DNA of 64,000 nucleotides from Hydractinia symbiolongicarpus (lineage: Eukaryota > Cnidaria > Hydrozoa > Anthoathecata > Hydractiniidae): positions 24,118,501-24,182,500 of the forward strand of contig NC_079880.1 in NCBI RefSeq assembly GCF_029227915.1, in the 5' to 3' direction. This document shows, in pieces, positions 550 to 8,615 of the stretch (the stretch's first letter is position 1; every line of letters begins with the position of its first letter). The position numbers and the translations under genes are program-made. The notes beneath the pieces are model-generated. The model saw only the letters and a program-made list of their open reading frames with translations, did not search any database and was not told the DNA's origin.

Positions 550-2266
550 TAACAACATGTGAAAAATGATTTATCTTGGAGAACAATTCTTTCACTGCCA
601 CGATGTCTAACTTCCTTTTGTATAGGCGCAACCTACGACACCCTTCCCTCTCCAACCAATCTTGTGAGGTGGGGAATTGAGAAAGACAAAAGTTGCATTC
701 TGTGCAAGAAACCATCCTCAAATGTCTCTCACATATTGGGTGCCTGTAGGACCTCCGGCCGGTCATCCACCATCTAAGAAGAGGCATACAAAGTGTCCAG
801 GCCATCTTCACCTTGCTTCCGATTGGAAAATACTGTCAGATTTAGATTCCGTATTAGTTGTTCCACCATACATTGCAATAACACAACTACGCCCAGACGT
901 GTTAATAATATCCAGTTCTTCCAAAACTGTAATTATGTTAGAACTGACTTGTCCATGTGAAGAGAACGCGGAATATTGGCACAAACGAAAGCTTAACAAA
1001 TATTCTTCACTTTGTTATGCTATGAAAAACAATGGATGGATCGTGCATTTCTTTGCCATTGAGGTGGGTGCAAGGGGTTTCTGTTCAGAATCAGTAGGGA
1101 CCTGTTTTCGTCGCCTTGGTTTCCCTAACAAGCCTTTACGTTCCCTATTAAAATCCCTAACTTTTTCCTCCATGAGTGCTTCTTTTTACATCTGGATGTC
1201 TCGAAATTCTACCACTTGGGTTGAGCCTGGAAAGGACCCAATCATTCCTGAAATTTCTTCTGTTACAAATATGGAATGTAAGAAATCAAAACCCCCTGAG
1301 AAATCTTCCGCAAGTCACACAAAATCTTGTAAAATCAAAAAACCCGAAAAACTTGCTACAAGGTCTTCCAAAACAACAGTCGCACTGCCATCTAACCTTG
1401 ATTTTAGGAATAGCGGTCTAAAAAACTTGGGAAACACATGTTATGCAAACATTACAATGTTTTTATAACCTCCAAAAGTTAAAGAAGTCATTTCTGTCAG
1501 CAAAACAACCTCAAAGTTAGGCGAAGCATTTGTAGGTGTTCTTCAAAGTTTGGCTGTTTCTAGAAGTCCAGTTGATCCCTCCCATTTTTTGCGTGCTATG
1601 AAACATCATATCTCACCTGCGAAAGGAAGTGCATTTAATATCTTTGCTCAGCACGACGTCCCCGAGGTTCTTGAATATCTCCTACCTGTTCTGTCATTAA
1701 ACTTTCCATTTCTTGGAAGTCTTTTTAGTATTGGCATCAAGACATCAACCACTTGCAATTCATGTCATATTACCAGCTCCTCAGAAGTTATAGCACCATG
1801 CATCCAACTCTCTCTGCACCCTACGTTACAATCTTCCTTAGATAATTTCTTTGAAAGCGAGGAGTTGTCAGACACCAATGCCTTCTGCCATGTTTGCAAC
1901 ACTCATCAAACTGCTCTAGTTGAAAAAGAGGTAGTGTCATGCGGTTCCCATCTCATTTTACAGCTAAAACGTTTTGCCAATGCCAACGGCCTTGTGTTAA
2001 AAATTGCCTCTCGTATTACTGCTTACCCTGGTACCCTTTCCATACCTTTAACCGTAGATGGAGAAGTGAAATTTCGTAAAAATTTTCAATTAAGGGCTAT
2101 TATCAACCATTGCGGCAACTTAAATAATGGTCACTACACAACCATAGCCTTCGACCAAATGGTACACAGGTGGATACATTGCAACGATAGAGCAGTAATT
2201 TTCTGTGGTGACCGCCTTATTAACAGTCACGAGTCATATGTTTTCTTTTTAGAAGAGCTGAGATAA
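550..2266 (+). pseudogene. Retroelement copy A: Cys/His finger, restriction-like endonuclease and USP protease domain
   Basis: This is the 3' half of a non-LTR polyprotein. From 559, a first frame gives the DLSW...LPSP region and a finger C-x2-C...H-x4-C (ILCKK...HILGAC), typical of REL-endonuclease retroelements. After a frameshift near 775, the second frame reads RPD (codons 890-898) then ELTCPCEE (from 941), a PD-(D/E)xK endonuclease core. About 150 residues on comes a ubiquitin-specific protease domain. Its Cys box is GLKNLGNTCYAN with Cys at 1439-1441, followed by a QHD..E motif near 1650, two CxxC pairs (zinc ribbon), and a His box GHYTT with His at 2132-2134. An Asp lies in CND at 2186-2188. 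The REL and USP parts share one frame and are broken by a single TAA at 1466-1468. The 5' end is truncated. USP domains cleave ubiquitin isopeptide bonds. Its job in a retroelement is unknown, and self-processing or protection from degradation are guesses. Confidence 0.8.
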
Positions 2267-2290
2267 GAATATTTTAACCGGAATGAGTCA

Positions 2291-2535
2291 GCAAGGCAGC
2301 TTGACTACACTCAGTCTTGTCTTTGGAGAGTGACGACTCCACTTATTACCCCAGTCAAGAATAAAACAAAATCAAATTAAAAATTAAGTTAGCAAGGGGG
2401 TTTGATCATACTAGGTCTTGTCTTTCGAGAGTGACGACTCCACTTATTACCCCAGTTAAAAAAAAAAAAAGCAGGGGGGTTTGATCACACATGATCTTTT
2501 CTTTGGAGAGTAACGACTCCACTTATTACCCGAGT
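2291..2535 (+). repeat. Three tandem 65-nt units in the retroelement 3' UTR
   Basis: Units lie at 2291-2355, 2392-2456 and 2471-2535. Each starts GCA(A)GG and ends near ATTACCCCAGT. Each is followed by an A-rich tail (a run of 14 A after the second). Units 1 and 3 contain a small hairpin, TGGAG...CTCCA. In non-LTR elements, 3'-UTR structures are recognised by the reverse transcriptase, so repeated copies of a recognition hairpin are plausible. Repeated tailing on retrotransposition is another possibility. Confidence 0.7.
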
Positions 2536-2595
2536 TAAAAACAAAGAATAGCACAGTTGAACAGAAAGTGGTCAAAGTTAATTTTAGGAAGATAG

Positions 2596-2658
2596 GGATG
2601 TCTAGTTTCTGCTGATGACCGTCCGCGGACCTCTTCGAGGTGACCCAGCTAGACATCC
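2596..2658. other. Stem-loop with a perfect 10-bp stem
   Basis: GGATGTCTAG at 2596-2605 pairs exactly with CTAGACATCC at 2649-2658. Inside the 43-nt loop is a second hairpin, ACCTC-ttc-GAGGT, and the palindrome GTCCGCGGAC. It lies between the two retroelement copies. Its function is unknown and I cannot assign it to a ribozyme class. Confidence 0.45.
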
Positions 2659-3004
2659 AGGGTACTTAGGTTCAGAAATATGGGTCGAAACCTACCTGCC
2701 CTTGGTTAAAGTTCTGTTCATCTTTTCAAATGTGTTGTGTCCTTTTTATTTTATTTTTTATATTTTTTAATTAATTCCTTGTAAAAAGGGAGAATTGTGC
2801 TTTTAGAGGCATGTTCTCTAGAGGAGTACAACCTCTAGCTTGTTTCCAAAGACCAAACAGGTTGAGTTCATCATTGCGGTGGCTTGCCACCTCTTTGTAA
2901 ATTATTTTCTTAAATATGGTACACATCAAGGTAAGTTAATTTAAATAATATTTATTTATACTACCCTTGTGCTTTTGCACTTCTTTTATAAACAATTTTT
3001 TTGT
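2659..3004. other. Non-coding spacer between the retroelement copies
   Basis: T-rich sequence with two short perfect hairpins (CTAGAGG...CCTCTAG near 2818-2838 and GGTGGC-tt-GCCACC near 2878-2892). No reading frame is supported. It may be residual UTR of either retroelement copy. Confidence 0.4.
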
Positions 3005-5402
3005 CTGCGTAACTAACTGTCATTGGATATGTATCTATTAAAGATTATCGGTCTATTGCCAAGCAAGCTTTTATTCAGTCTTGTATCAAGACGGTTAGAA
3101 GCCAACATAATTTATAACAGAAAGTTTATCAATACGTCACTCCAAAAAGGTTGTATGGAAAAGGTTCCAGGTTGCTGGAAACACATGTCGATGGTTCAAG
3201 CTGCTCCTGAAGAAGCCCGAATTAACAAATCAGGGCTCGCCACAATATGGCTGGATATCGCAAATGCTTATACATCCACACAATTTAATATTTTTTCACT
3301 GGAAAGATATGGAGTTGCTCCAAGCTGGATATCGTTCCTTAAGACGTATTACATCGGTATTTATAGACCAAGCAATTTGCACAGGCACGTGCGTGGAATT
3401 TTCGCTGGGTGCACCCTTTCCATTATTTTGTTTCTTGCCGGTATCAACATCATCCTTGAATACACTACTCTCCTATCTGATGCCTCCAATTTTGTTACTT
3501 CGAAGAAGGTATCCCTACCAGTAATTAGAGGTTTTATGGACGATATCAACCTTTGTCATCTTCTGTTTCGGAAGCTCAGAACCTCCTAACCCGATGTACT
3601 ACTGCTTTGACGTGGGCCAGGATGACTTTCTGTCCCCGTAAGTCAAGAAGCATAATACTTTTAAGGTCAGTAAACACTACCCTGCTTTCTGTTACCCCTC
3701 CATCTACACCAACTGACTTTTCCTCCTCTATCACATCAGTACACTCCTCACCTGTTCGTTTCCTTGATCTCATTATTGACAGTTCAATTTCAGACGCAAA
3801 GGCAATCGGAGAGCTAGACAATAAGTTAACAACTGGGCTTACAGTTATAAACAGATCTTCTTTTAAAGGAACTCAGAAATCCTGGATTCTAAAAAATCTA
3901 CTTATCCCTCGAACACAATGGCCACTGCTTATTTACGAGGTTCCTAGATCCCAAATTTCAAGGCTGGAACAAAAGACATTCAATTTACCGATCCACTACT
4001 AACATCTGTCTGTACAGCTCCTGTTCGCCTTTTCCCCTGCCAATCAAAAGTCTGATATCACTACTGAAGTCCTTCAAAATCAGCGGCCATCTACTTTTAA
4101 GAGACTTTAAAGATTCACTAGTCCCAAACAGCGCCCGCTCTTTAAAATTGGGTAAGTGGAAAGTAAAAGACGTAGTTACGACGGCAGAGACAGTAGCGAC
4201 AGTTCGATCCATGATAGGTACTCCCCAACCGGGTAGAGCTGGCCTAGGCATTCAAAAAGGTTTTAAGATTCCCACTTCCAGACAGTGCTATGCTTAACAC
4301 AGCAAAAGATATAGACAAGGAAGCGAACATGAGTAGAGCCATGCAGTTACAAGTACAAGGGCAGTTGACCAGATGGGAGAATTACATCTAAAATGACCTG
4401 TCCTGGAATTCCATTCTTGCCATGCCACCAAACTTTTTTCTTTCTGGTTGGCCTATACTTGTGACGCTTTACCCTCATCCAGCAACTTAAAACGCTGGAA
4501 GATTTGCACTGAATCCAGTTGTTCCTTGTGAGGAAAATTTTTATGCACCACAGCACATGTCTTAAGTTCTTGCAAGGTTTCCCTTTGTCAAGGTCGATTT
4601 ACTTTCTGACATGATTCTGTTCTTTGCGAGCTTTTTCTAAACCTTAAAGAATTTTTCACAAATTAAACCATCACCGAAAAGTAAATTGTAGAAAACACCA
4701 TTTTTAAAGCAGGTACATGTACCTCTGGAAAAAGATCAAAGCCAACAGGTCTTTTCCATCACGCCAGTGACTGGGTGATATTATCTCACTTATACAATAT
4801 CTTTGTTCCCGGTCACATAGCTGTTACATCACTCAGACCAGACATTGTAATGTATTCCAACTATTCCAAGATTGCCATTCCAATCGAACTTACCTGCCCT
4901 TGTGAGGAGAATATGGAGTCCTGGCACTGTACCAAACTTCTTAAATGCTCCTCTTTAGTTGAACTGATACGTAGTAAAGGTTGGTCTCCACATCTTTACG
5001 CTGTTGAATAGGTGCTAGAGGTTACAATTCTAGATCGGTTACATGTTGTTTAAAAAATCTCGATTTTTCCAGCAAATCTGCATATATAACTGCACGCAAA
5101 CTTGGTGACATATGCATGAAAACATCATTTTGCATTTGGTTTGCTAGAGATTCTCTACAATGGTCCCAACAGCGCAGTCCCGCAACATCCACAACCTCAA
5201 AAGTTCCCAAGTGGTTTCTTTGGCATCAAACTCTTTTGCCGATAACGGTCCGTATCCAGCCACACCATTACCAAAACCCCCACTTGATCGAAAGACCAAA
5301 TCCAAGCAGAAAGCTAACAACGTTTACGCCGGTTTGATAAACAAAGGTAACACATGCTATGCAAACTCCATCAATAACTATCAGTTAGTAAACCCAATAT
5401 AA
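3005..5402 (+). pseudogene. Retroelement copy B: reverse transcriptase, finger, endonuclease and start of USP domain
   Basis: This is a second, more decayed copy of the element at 550-2266, here with the reverse transcriptase. Recognisable RT stretches are QKGCMEKVPGCW, ATIWLDIANAY (catalytic Asp), AGCTLSIILF and GFMDDI (catalytic Asp pair) up to about 3560. Then, after a frameshift, come TWARM.F.PRKSRS and LIPRTQWPLLIYEVP to about 4000, with the thumb or connection region continuing to about 4270. A degraded DLSW/finger region follows (4390-4560). The endonuclease core LRPDIVMYS...IELTCPCEE is at 4835-4920. Last is a USP Cys box, GLINKGNTCYANS, with Cys at 5355-5357. Several frameshifts and stops separate these parts. 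The sequence stops matching after about 5400, so the rest of the USP is missing. Domain order matches copy A wherever they overlap. Confidence 0.8.
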
Positions 5403-5714: not shown

Positions 5715-6964
5715 CTAATTGTATAAATACAATGGAGCAGATCTAATGTTGTTATTCAACTGGGGACTATCCCCCACTATGAACAAACTCTCTTTAATCT
5801 CTAGCAAATACCGGTTGTTACCCCTAGAGAGTATACTAAAATCGTCAAGAGATGATGTGGTGTGACAGGCTTTAAGATGATCTTTAATTGCCGTGCAATT
5901 AGATGAGGTTGATTTCTTACCTGTTAAGGGAGACACTCCGAGGTGCTCGCTTGCCCGAACCTTAAGATGACGCGACGTCTCACCTATATAAGTGGCGTTG
6001 CAGCCACTGCACTTATATTTGTAAATGACGCCTGACTTTAATTCTTTGGGCAACAGGTCTTTAAATCTGAAGAAGTTAGATAAGCGAGTGTGAGTTCTGA
6101 AAACAACAGAAAGTTTACAACAATGCAAAGTAGATTTAAAAAGTTTTTCTAACTTCGTTCTCGTTTGTAAAGATGTTTTACCTAAAAAAGGGAGAACAAT
6201 CAAAAGGTTTTTCTTCCCAGCTGTGTGGGTGACTTCTTTGGTTTTGCGAGATATTGAAAAAAAGTGTTTTATGACCTTGTCAATAAATAGTTCTGGATAA
6301 CCATTTCGAATAAAGATATCTTTGATTCTAATAACCTCGTGATGAAACATTGACCAACTTGAACAAATTTTAAAACAACGATGAAGCAAAGTATAAATTA
6401 AGCCGAATTTATAGCTTTCAGGAATAAAACTATCGAAGTGCGTGTACACTCCGCTAAAAGTAGGCTTTCTATATATGGATGTAATAAACTTTCGGTCCAC
6501 ATCACGAGTAATGGATATGTCAAGGAAAGATAATTTAGTGCTCTTTTCCGTCTCTGATGTAAAAGAGATGTTAGGATGGCATTTATTCAAGTAATTTTGA
6601 AATTTTGGCAAGTGGTCCGGGGATGAAAACAACACAAAAATATCGTCAACGTACCTTTTAAAGTAGACGGGCTTGAATTCTGTTGGACAATTGTTCAACC
6701 AGTTTTGTTCATGATGGCACAAAAAAGCATTAGCAAATGTGGGGCCTAAGGGTGAACCCATAGCCACTCCATCAATTTGTTGATAAATTTTGTCATTAAA
6801 AATGAAATATGACTCCTTGGTAGCTAGCTCTAAAAGAGATTTAAACTCACTTCTAGTTAGACCTTGACACCTATCACATTGATCAAAGACCAGGTTGGTA
6901 CATATTTCTATCGTTTCATTTAACGGAATGTTGGTAAATAAAGAGTCAATGTCAAGGCTGGCCA
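5715..6964 (-). pseudogene. Penelope-like element: RT palm and GIY-YIG endonuclease
   Basis: An open frame of just over 400 codons. It begins at RT motif A (SLDIDSLFTNIPLNET), then VAMGSPLGPTFAN, and the catalytic YVDD (KRYVDDIFVLF). The fingers lie on the other side of the hAT insertion (11098-11559). The C-terminal part has CSGCNATYIGETSRHLKVR, the GIY-YIG nuclease signature with an adjacent CxxC, as in the Neptune/Poseidon branch. The enzyme would copy its RNA at a nick made by the GIY-YIG domain. The frame itself is open, so the hAT insertion and the 5' truncation are the main lesions. The apparent ATG at the left of motif A is an internal Met created as a start only by the insertion. Confidence 0.85.
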
Positions 6965-7256
6965 CAGGGGCGGATATAGAATTTATTTTATGTCAGTCAC
7001 AAATTTTGCGAACCAAAAAAGCGCAGTCGTTTGCGTAGCAAACCGCTGCGCGCCAAAACAGCTTGGGGTTTTTGGGGGCGCTGTAAGCCCCCCAAATGGG
7101 GTACGGGGCTAAAGCGTTAACAGGCTAAATCAAAGTCCAATCTCCTCTTACTCTTTAACGTGTAAAACCACTCTTTTGCGTTAATTTTGGAAAAATGTAT
7201 TTGTTGTATAAAGTTAGGGGATAATAAAAACAACGGTAGGAATTATATATTATCAG

Positions 7257-7644: not shown

Positions 7645-8480
7645 TTAAATAAGTTCAAGATGTCTTTTGTCTTTAGCAAACTTATTTATGACTTGATGCA
7701 CATCCGGCACTATTTCATTATGTATGTACATGAGAGCAAGTCCATTAAGTCTGTCAGAGACCATAGTTGTGCGAGTATAGCTTTTTAATTTTCTCATGGA
7801 TGAAAAAGAGCGCTCACACTCACATGTTGTGACAGGTATAGTGGCTAAGATACGCAGTGCCACATTTAAATTTACAAATACTTTTAAATCAATCGACTTT
7901 AAAGTTTGGGCAATTGTTTCAGGCCTGGTACCTTTGAAATCTAGCCAGTACCTTTCCCATAGTTCTAATTCGCCACATAAAGCTAATGCATTAGGAAGAT
8001 CATCTTCATAAAAAGAGGAAAAAGATGTAAATTTTTCTTTCCAATTAACCTTACCATTGGAAAGAAGGTTTATCATTTTAGCAGGGAGAATACATAAGCC
8101 GTTATATACACTAAGTGCAATAGGTTCAAATCTAGACTTCATTTCACTGTTAAGGTGGTCTAAGAGAGGGTTAGTAACAGCTTTTTTGTAGAAGTCAAAC
8201 ATACAGGTGAAAGGATGATTATCCCTATTAATTTGTCTTCCAACAGTCCTCTTTTTTTCCTCCTCTATACCAACCTTTGCACAGAGAGAAAGAGTTTCCT
8301 TGTACCATAAGTCATGAAAATGGTCGACGTTGTTTCTTGTCTGTCTTAAAACATTTTGTAAAGTTTTTATTAAATCTATTGAGTCCATTATATCTATAGA
8401 TTTATTTTGAAGCAGTTGTGTCACAGGCAGAGTAACATCAAAAATACTTCTTGTAATTACAAGAGTGACAACAAATTCAA
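7645..8480 (-). pseudogene. hAT transposase C-terminal half with dimerisation region
   Basis: An open frame on the minus strand starts at about 8424 (LPVTQLLQ-type region) with related sequence just upstream to 8480. It ends at 7645. Near its end are CECERSFSSMRKLKSY and LNGLALMYIH, the hAT C-terminal dimerisation signature of ZMYM1/52-kDa-repressor-like transposases. The zinc-finger half (8616-9975) lies upstream, but the intervening DUF4371-type catalytic segment is largely missing. Only about 200 bp separate the halves where family members have roughly 300 residues. The element is therefore an internal deletion derivative and cannot encode a working transposase. Confidence 0.8.
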
Positions 8481-8615
8481 AGTTGGCTATTTGATGAAAA
8501 AAACCAACTGCTTGTTTTGAAGTATCATGGTTGTATTTCCTCTCTTAATTTAACTTCATTTCTTCCAGGGTAACATGAATTGCAATATATAGCTCCTGAA
8601 AAGTATCTAAACCAG

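Follow-up and report, generated by a model that had tools for sequence, protein, structure and literature searches.

REL-type non-LTR retrotransposons with a predicted ubiquitin-specific protease at the C-terminus, in Hydractinia and beyond

Can a non-LTR (long terminal repeat) retroelement carry a deubiquitinase as a working part of its own protein? The question is raised by the first 5.4 kb of a 64,000-nucleotide stretch of the Hydractinia symbiolongicarpus genome (NC_079880.1, positions 24,118,501 to 24,182,500; hereafter the window), which holds two decayed retroelement copies, A and B, both on the + strand. The initial annotation of this DNA proposed a non-LTR retroelement polyprotein ending in a ubiquitin-specific protease (USP), and intact copies elsewhere in the genome bear this out, with reverse transcriptase (RT), restriction-like endonuclease (REL) and USP all encoded by a single open frame. 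Judged on its sequence, the element is a REL-type non-LTR retrotransposon encoding one protein that ends in a USP; this protein would consist of an N-terminal region, RT, zinc knuckle, REL endonuclease, flexible linker and C-terminal USP.

Copy A belongs to a 5'-truncated element and begins with the C-terminal RT region and CCHC zinc knuckle at 556..756 (+), which align by tblastn to residues 826-892 of an intact relative, P0001, with 55% identity. The reading frame shifts near 757, between this part and the REL domain (RPD...ELTCPCEE) at 758..1222 (+; REL profile positions 42-195, E 2e-64). A linker of 61 codons (1223..1405, +), taken as the gap separating the two profile matches, leads to a complete USP (peptidase C19) domain at 1406..2254 (+; USP profile 2-286, E 4e-76), which shares its reading frame with the REL. 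The peptidase C19 profile check that the initial annotation had called for was positive, PF00443 matching the piece 1469-2266 by itself far beyond chance (E 9.2e-19), and the catalytic Cys, His and Asp are in place together with all four Cys of the zinc ribbon, as had been claimed. The sole stop of the REL-USP frame is indeed the TAA at 1466-1468, but the copy is less intact than 'one stop' implied, with small indels (its alignment to each of three family-1 copies opens 4 gaps) and a stretch just past the Cys box that is out of register with a relative. Its USP DNA is 96.5% identical to the best family-1 relative. The C-terminal end, stop and 3' untranslated region fill 2255..2912 (+; blastn matches to L003, one, and L013, two), with short repeats visible as self-matches at 2286-2553, and the 3' end is likely at 2912 because all three matches to these two related loci stop there.

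Copy B supplies the RT upstream, as initially described, although its frame is broken at least four times (near 3553, 3975 and 5008, and between 5211 and 5268). Its 5'-truncated RT lies at 3065..3975 (+; tblastn to P0002 349-662, 67-71% identity), followed at 3976..5169 (+; tblastn; REL profile E 2e-43 and 2e-15) by the thumb/zinc knuckle and the REL, the latter at 4589-5169 and split over two frames by the change near 5008. The end of the linker and the start of the USP with its Cys box (GNTCYAN) are found at 5268..5372 (+; tblastn to P0002 1112-1148, 57% identity), and the remainder of the USP is missing. Profile and tblastn matches confirm that both copies are real and share the order of REL, linker and USP Cys box. 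Copy B is ~71-73% identical to family 2, and the two copies are members of different families.

Intact versions were located by a UCH profile search of the genome (150 rows; 149 of 1,015 first-look candidates scored). The best two rows, L001 and L002, resemble host genes in that their matches are split into pieces, whereas many of the other matches lie within one long open frame; beside these two, 76 mostly higher-scoring loci (L003-L078) were taken, the lower rows, many of them partial, being left out. P0001, encoded by L012:3278-7555, has 1,426 residues in a single frame with RVT_1 at 339-609 and UCH at 1137-1423 (E 5e-32), these being its only Pfam domains above cut-off; a zf-RVT match at 828-892 reached 24.2 bits, below the cut-off of 27.5. 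The proteins of L016 (1,422 residues) and L015 (1,379 residues) have the same single-frame layout. NCBIfam gave no match for P0001 or P0002, and an Rfam scan of L012 2600-8400 gave nothing up to E 1.

The 76 loci contain 77 near-full-length USP copies, 65 preceded by a REL match at a distance of at most 700 nt and 12 not, a shortfall that 5' truncation, common in elements of this type, could account for. Stop-free USPs number 55 of the 77, and 35 of these share one open frame with the REL. When sorted into five Hydractinia families, the stop-free copies sampled number 22, 14, 11, 4 and 4, of which 18, 7, 7, 3 and 0, respectively, are in frame with the REL, the fifth family still having stop-free USP copies. 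Among the 55, the catalytic Cys is present in 54, His in 54 and Asp in 54 (plus Asn in 1), and the four zinc Cys in 54, 53, 52 and 55.

The domain assignments rest on several lines of evidence. The RT is of the R2/non-LTR type (RVT_1 E 8e-16; R2 chains E 2e-19 by sequence; FMDD, an F-x-DD motif), and a CCHC knuckle and then a PD-(D/E)xK-like endonuclease both lie C-terminal to it; across 40 proteins C538, C541, H550 and C555 of the knuckle and P646, D647, E662 and K678 of the endonuclease are invariant, with R645 in at least 90%. We assigned the endonuclease on a motif that we take to be REL-type and on a long fold alignment to R2. For the USP, the Cys box, His box, Asp/Asn, zinc ribbon and predicted fold are all present. 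Moreover, among 85 proteins with an RT/REL part and a complete USP (P0001 and P0002 included), the USP follows the REL and ends at most nine residues from the C-terminus in every case; Cys and His are found in all 85, Asp in 84 and the zinc Cys in 82, 85, 85 and 85. The initial figure of 150-170 residues for the linker holds when counting starts at the REL catalytic core and stops at the Cys box, while from domain end to domain end we counted 46-61 residues in the 35 in-frame Hydractinia copies and 28-313 (median 54) in the 85 proteins, whose linkers are slightly net basic (median 0.073). The element is multicopy, 5'-truncated and sharp at its 3' end and has no LTR, as expected for the non-LTR class; the repeats that flank it are head-to-tail pieces of another copy, variable in length, and not LTRs.

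The arrangement extends well beyond Hydractinia. Against 5.8 billion proteins, P0001 found 98 relatives among the 7,982 best word-sharing candidates scored, 23 of which are 1,346-1,474 residues long, contain both PF00078 and PF00443 and are 34-61% identical to it; a search with the USP-less P0076 gave 566 relatives, 120 of them listed. Two-short-peptide scans bearing on a prokaryotic or viral origin returned 20 pattern matches in GTDB genome contigs and 4 in IMG/VR viral contigs, none confirmed as a relative. Two USP-bearing proteins labelled as a Pseudomonadales metagenome assembly (P0033, P0153) run counter to the prokaryotic result, and we took them as putative eukaryotic DNA in a bacterial bin. 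C2H2 zinc fingers were seen in P0074, P0081 and P0115, alongside the USP in P0074 and P0115. Two further observations concern short USP proteins. The element's USP is matched with 100% identity by P0157, a Hydractinia protein of 404 aa that carries the name 'ubiquitin carboxyl-terminal hydrolase 2-like', and many short USP proteins at ~50% identity, which may be either element pieces or freed domains, come from contigs of up to 12.7 Mb. Chance or artefact was rejected on the E-values, the intact single-frame copies and the many diverged relatives.

To place the gain of the USP, an RT-REL tree was built from 124 of 156 proteins (P0099 was excluded as it has no RT match, the rest for incomplete RT-REL). 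All 72 rows with a USP and six with a partly preserved USP fall within one clade of 102 rows (SH-aLRT 100), and none of the other 22 rows, among them proteins of fish, amphioxus and scallop and one with Ulp1 (P0097), has a USP. A tree of 47 hand-chosen rows gave the same split with support 100/100 and requires four changes of the USP label, so that, if rooted outside the clade, the USP would have been gained once and lost three times (in the P0076 group, in P0066/P0080 and in P0081). In the larger tree, 23 rows inside the clade are USP-less: 14 form the P0076 group, four group together as P0066/P0073/P0080/P0082, and five stand singly or in pairs (P0049, P0051, P0065, P0081 and P0121) and could reflect truncation or faulty gene models, two of them (P0049 and P0065) being Hydractinia gene models. 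P0123, scored as 'other', carries a Cys box close to its end. Pairwise RT-REL and USP distances in 69 proteins are correlated (r 0.851, with 0 of 999 permutations equally high), and the USP tree also separates two main subclades, which together argue that RT-REL and USP are co-inherited; the USP of P0074 sits on a long branch and may have a history of its own. The initial annotation had named two outcomes that would undo its claim. Among the tree rows, RT-REL proteins ending before the USP occur only in side branches of the USP-bearing clade, and capture of a host USP by a single founder insertion is at odds with one-frame REL-USP in four of the five sampled Hydractinia families and with the many diverged proteins elsewhere.

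Selection on the USP was estimated from the ratio of nonsynonymous to synonymous rates (dN/dS, or omega), which the initial annotation had proposed to test for a value below 1; such values were found by each approach. Because between-family pairwise values are saturated, a codon model on the tree was used, with omega and kappa scored on a grid. From stop-free copies only, and with saturated between-family distances that make the values rough, the best omega was 0.25 for the USP of 17 representatives (lnL -6195.3 vs -6366.1 at omega 1), 0.2 for the USP of 10 REL-USP copies (lnL -4642.0 vs -4771.4) and likewise 0.2 for their REL (lnL -1823.4 vs -1888.1). P0001 and three relatives share 50-63% of residues in the REL and 41-48% in the USP, against 8-29% in the linker. 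USP and REL thus follow one pattern, that of purifying selection, from which the linker departs.

Several observations weigh against the functional explanation given below. Within families, pairwise dN/dS of the USP is just ~0.52 (22 pairs with dS 0.1-0.2) or ~0.55 (closer pairs); between families dS is saturated (1,086 pairs), a median of 0.25 coming from four pairs at dS 1.2-3. To these are added the roughness of the omega values and their stop-free sample. As 23 of the 102 clade rows are without a USP, the domain is not indispensable everywhere, and the split in the USP tree has a branch support of only 63. At the active site, P0130 has Tyr instead of Asp, and the Asn preceding the catalytic Cys (GN.C) is kept in 77 of 85 proteins and is another residue or a gap in 8.

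With these points taken into account, the element USP is very probably active on ubiquitin. By analogy with R2, the element would insert by target-primed reverse transcription, the REL nicking the target and the RT copying the element RNA from the nick. The USP, being tethered to the RT-REL protein, would be placed to undo host ubiquitination in cis: most likely it would strip ubiquitin from the element's own protein or ribonucleoprotein and so shield the element complex from host ubiquitin-proteasome restriction. Host ubiquitination of retrotransposon proteins is described in two papers on LINE-1, in which TRIM41 ubiquitinates ORF2p (PMC10716122) and TEX19.1 promotes the action of UBR2 on ORF1p (PMC5570191). 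That the element's own complex is the main substrate we put at slightly below even odds, and the whole explanation, an RT-REL-USP element whose USP protects its own complex, is the best we have, with a probability of roughly 55%.

The main rival has the USP acting on chromatin, deubiquitinating histones or repair proteins where the target has been nicked, and thereby aiding target-primed reverse transcription or second-strand synthesis. The USP is tethered beside the presumed DNA-cutting domain, the REL, the slightly basic linkers would fit as well, and the matched PDB sequences include USP1 and 3mhh, presumably yeast Ubp8 of SAGA; a DNA-repair function has also been suggested for Ulp1/OTU in DNA transposons by Bao et al. 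2010 (PMC2836005). Nothing points to a histone-specific adaptor, however, and the USP matches are at family level only, so we consider this role unlikely, if well worth keeping in mind. Less probable still is a processing protease that would cut the polyprotein, for example REL from USP, or act on another ubiquitin-like tag. USPs are cysteine proteases, structures of USP36 with FUBI and of USP18 with ISG15 are among the fold matches, and a weak match to the ubiquitin-like APG12 occurs in the RT/thumb (E 0.042 in P0001 and E 0.0043 in the L015 protein, both below the Pfam cut-off). USPs cleave after a folded ubiquitin-like domain, however, and in a scan of three intact proteins no such domain exceeded its Pfam cut-off; the APG12 match sits in a conserved part of the RT rather than ahead of the linker, and the linker itself is variable, with GG in only 11 of 85. 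Finally, a functionless passenger, a host USP caught in one founder insertion or lying downstream by chance of the window copies, could draw on the 12 USP copies without a nearby REL and the 23 USP-less clade rows, but has next to no probability in view of 35 one-frame copies over several families, the conserved triad, one old gain and omega well under 1; founder capture in particular was rejected on the one-frame fusion in several families, the clade-wide old gain and the co-inheritance of RT-REL and USP.

Elements of known type offer partial parallels. The Tetraodon polyprotein Q7T1J8 (P0154), which we take to be Zebulon, is an RT-REL element with 38% identity to the USP-less clade member P0076 and is placed in the sister group of the USP-bearing clade; it ends 12 residues past its REL match, whereas the Hydractinia elements continue into the USP. 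R2 provides the best solved relative of the RT by sequence (P0001 289-722), where R2 chains match the RT part only, while the R2 fold alignment covers 777-804 columns, a length that could take in the REL as well. Its target is 28S rDNA; the Hydractinia flanks differ between copies by eye. NeSL and Utopia are REL elements, some with an added Ulp1 protease for a ubiquitin-like modifier, and the initial annotation was correct that NeSL has this protease; its location differs, as PMC4640811 places Ulp1 at the N-terminal side in nematode NeSL families and Utopia-1_TSP, and the word 'ubiquitin' is absent from the main text of that paper. NeSL Ulp1 is a peptidase C48 N-terminal to the RT, as in P0097, in contrast to the C-terminal C19 peptidase of Hydractinia, where P0001, P0002 and the protein of L015 gave no C48 match up to E 1; P0097 falls in the sister group, in a tree that has no named NeSL reference. 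NeSL is site-specific; by eye, the outer 3' flanks of eight Hydractinia family-0 loci have no sequence in common. Among DNA transposons, whose core enzymes are unrelated to RT elements, Ginger1, Mutator, Helitron and a Trichomonas transposase likewise have an added Ulp1, OTU or peptidase C19 domain for ubiquitin or SUMO, the last combining peptidase C19 with transposase_11 (XP_001314237.1), as stated by Bao et al. 2010 (PMC2836005). Cellular USPs (USP2, USP8, USP15 and USP36) show 22-28% identity to the element USP in fold alignments, the latter differing in being the tail of a reverse transcriptase.

The insertion pattern was examined in eight family-0 loci, picked for long open frames and not by upstream content. 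Their outer 3' ends are sharp, lie within 1-2 bases of a common point and have no poly(A), and the flanks beyond are dissimilar by eye, no count having been made. All seven that reach the 5' end (L009-L014 and L017) have the 3' end of another copy upstream, head to tail, in pieces of 111, 204, 291, 481, 1,032, ~2,450 and at least ~4,270 bp; the eighth, L018, is 5'-truncated. Such partial tandem insertions resemble Zebulon, which reportedly inserts in partial tandem arrays in Tetraodon. The joins could arise from template jumping, by analogy with the R2 RT, which jumps between separate templates in vitro according to PMC8857657, whose authors suggest that jumping may be unneeded in life; read-through transcripts of tandem copies would equally give head-to-tail joins. 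Elsewhere in the window, an opposite-strand retroelement fragment at 5715-6992 (-; RVT_1 E 4e-10) lies just past the point where copy B breaks off, its RVT_1 being followed by a stretch that by eye resembles GIY-YIG as in Penelope-like elements, and a hAT transposase fragment occupies 7645-8544 (-; Dimer_Tnp_hAT E 1.5e-9).

What emerges is a clade of REL-type non-LTR retrotransposons distinguished by the USP at their C-terminus, set among protease additions to mobile elements that are already known. Among the papers listed by searches of the open PMC library, no title or opening of an abstract describes a USP or deubiquitinase in a non-LTR element, Repbase and subscription papers being outside that scope. 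We propose, tentatively and with slightly less than even confidence, that an old and widespread clade of eukaryotic elements carries a working USP as a counter-defence that shields the insertion complex from host ubiquitin ligases. Within the literature covered, this would be the first USP-type deubiquitinase in a non-LTR retrotransposon, gained independently of NeSL Ulp1 and of the Ulp1/OTU of DNA transposons. The conserved arrangement and active site suggest that the element manages the host protein-disposal system for its own ends. Gene catalogues call for some caution, as an element USP is listed there under the host-like name 'ubiquitin carboxyl-terminal hydrolase 2-like'. A direct test is feasible, with the catalytic Cys identified and intact copies present in Hydractinia, a laboratory animal. 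LINE-1 proteins are under control by host ubiquitination, and an element-borne deubiquitinase would reveal how the element takes part in this contest. That unrelated mobile elements have separately acquired Ulp1, OTU and USP domains suggests that transposition repeatedly requires ubiquitin or SUMO to be removed.

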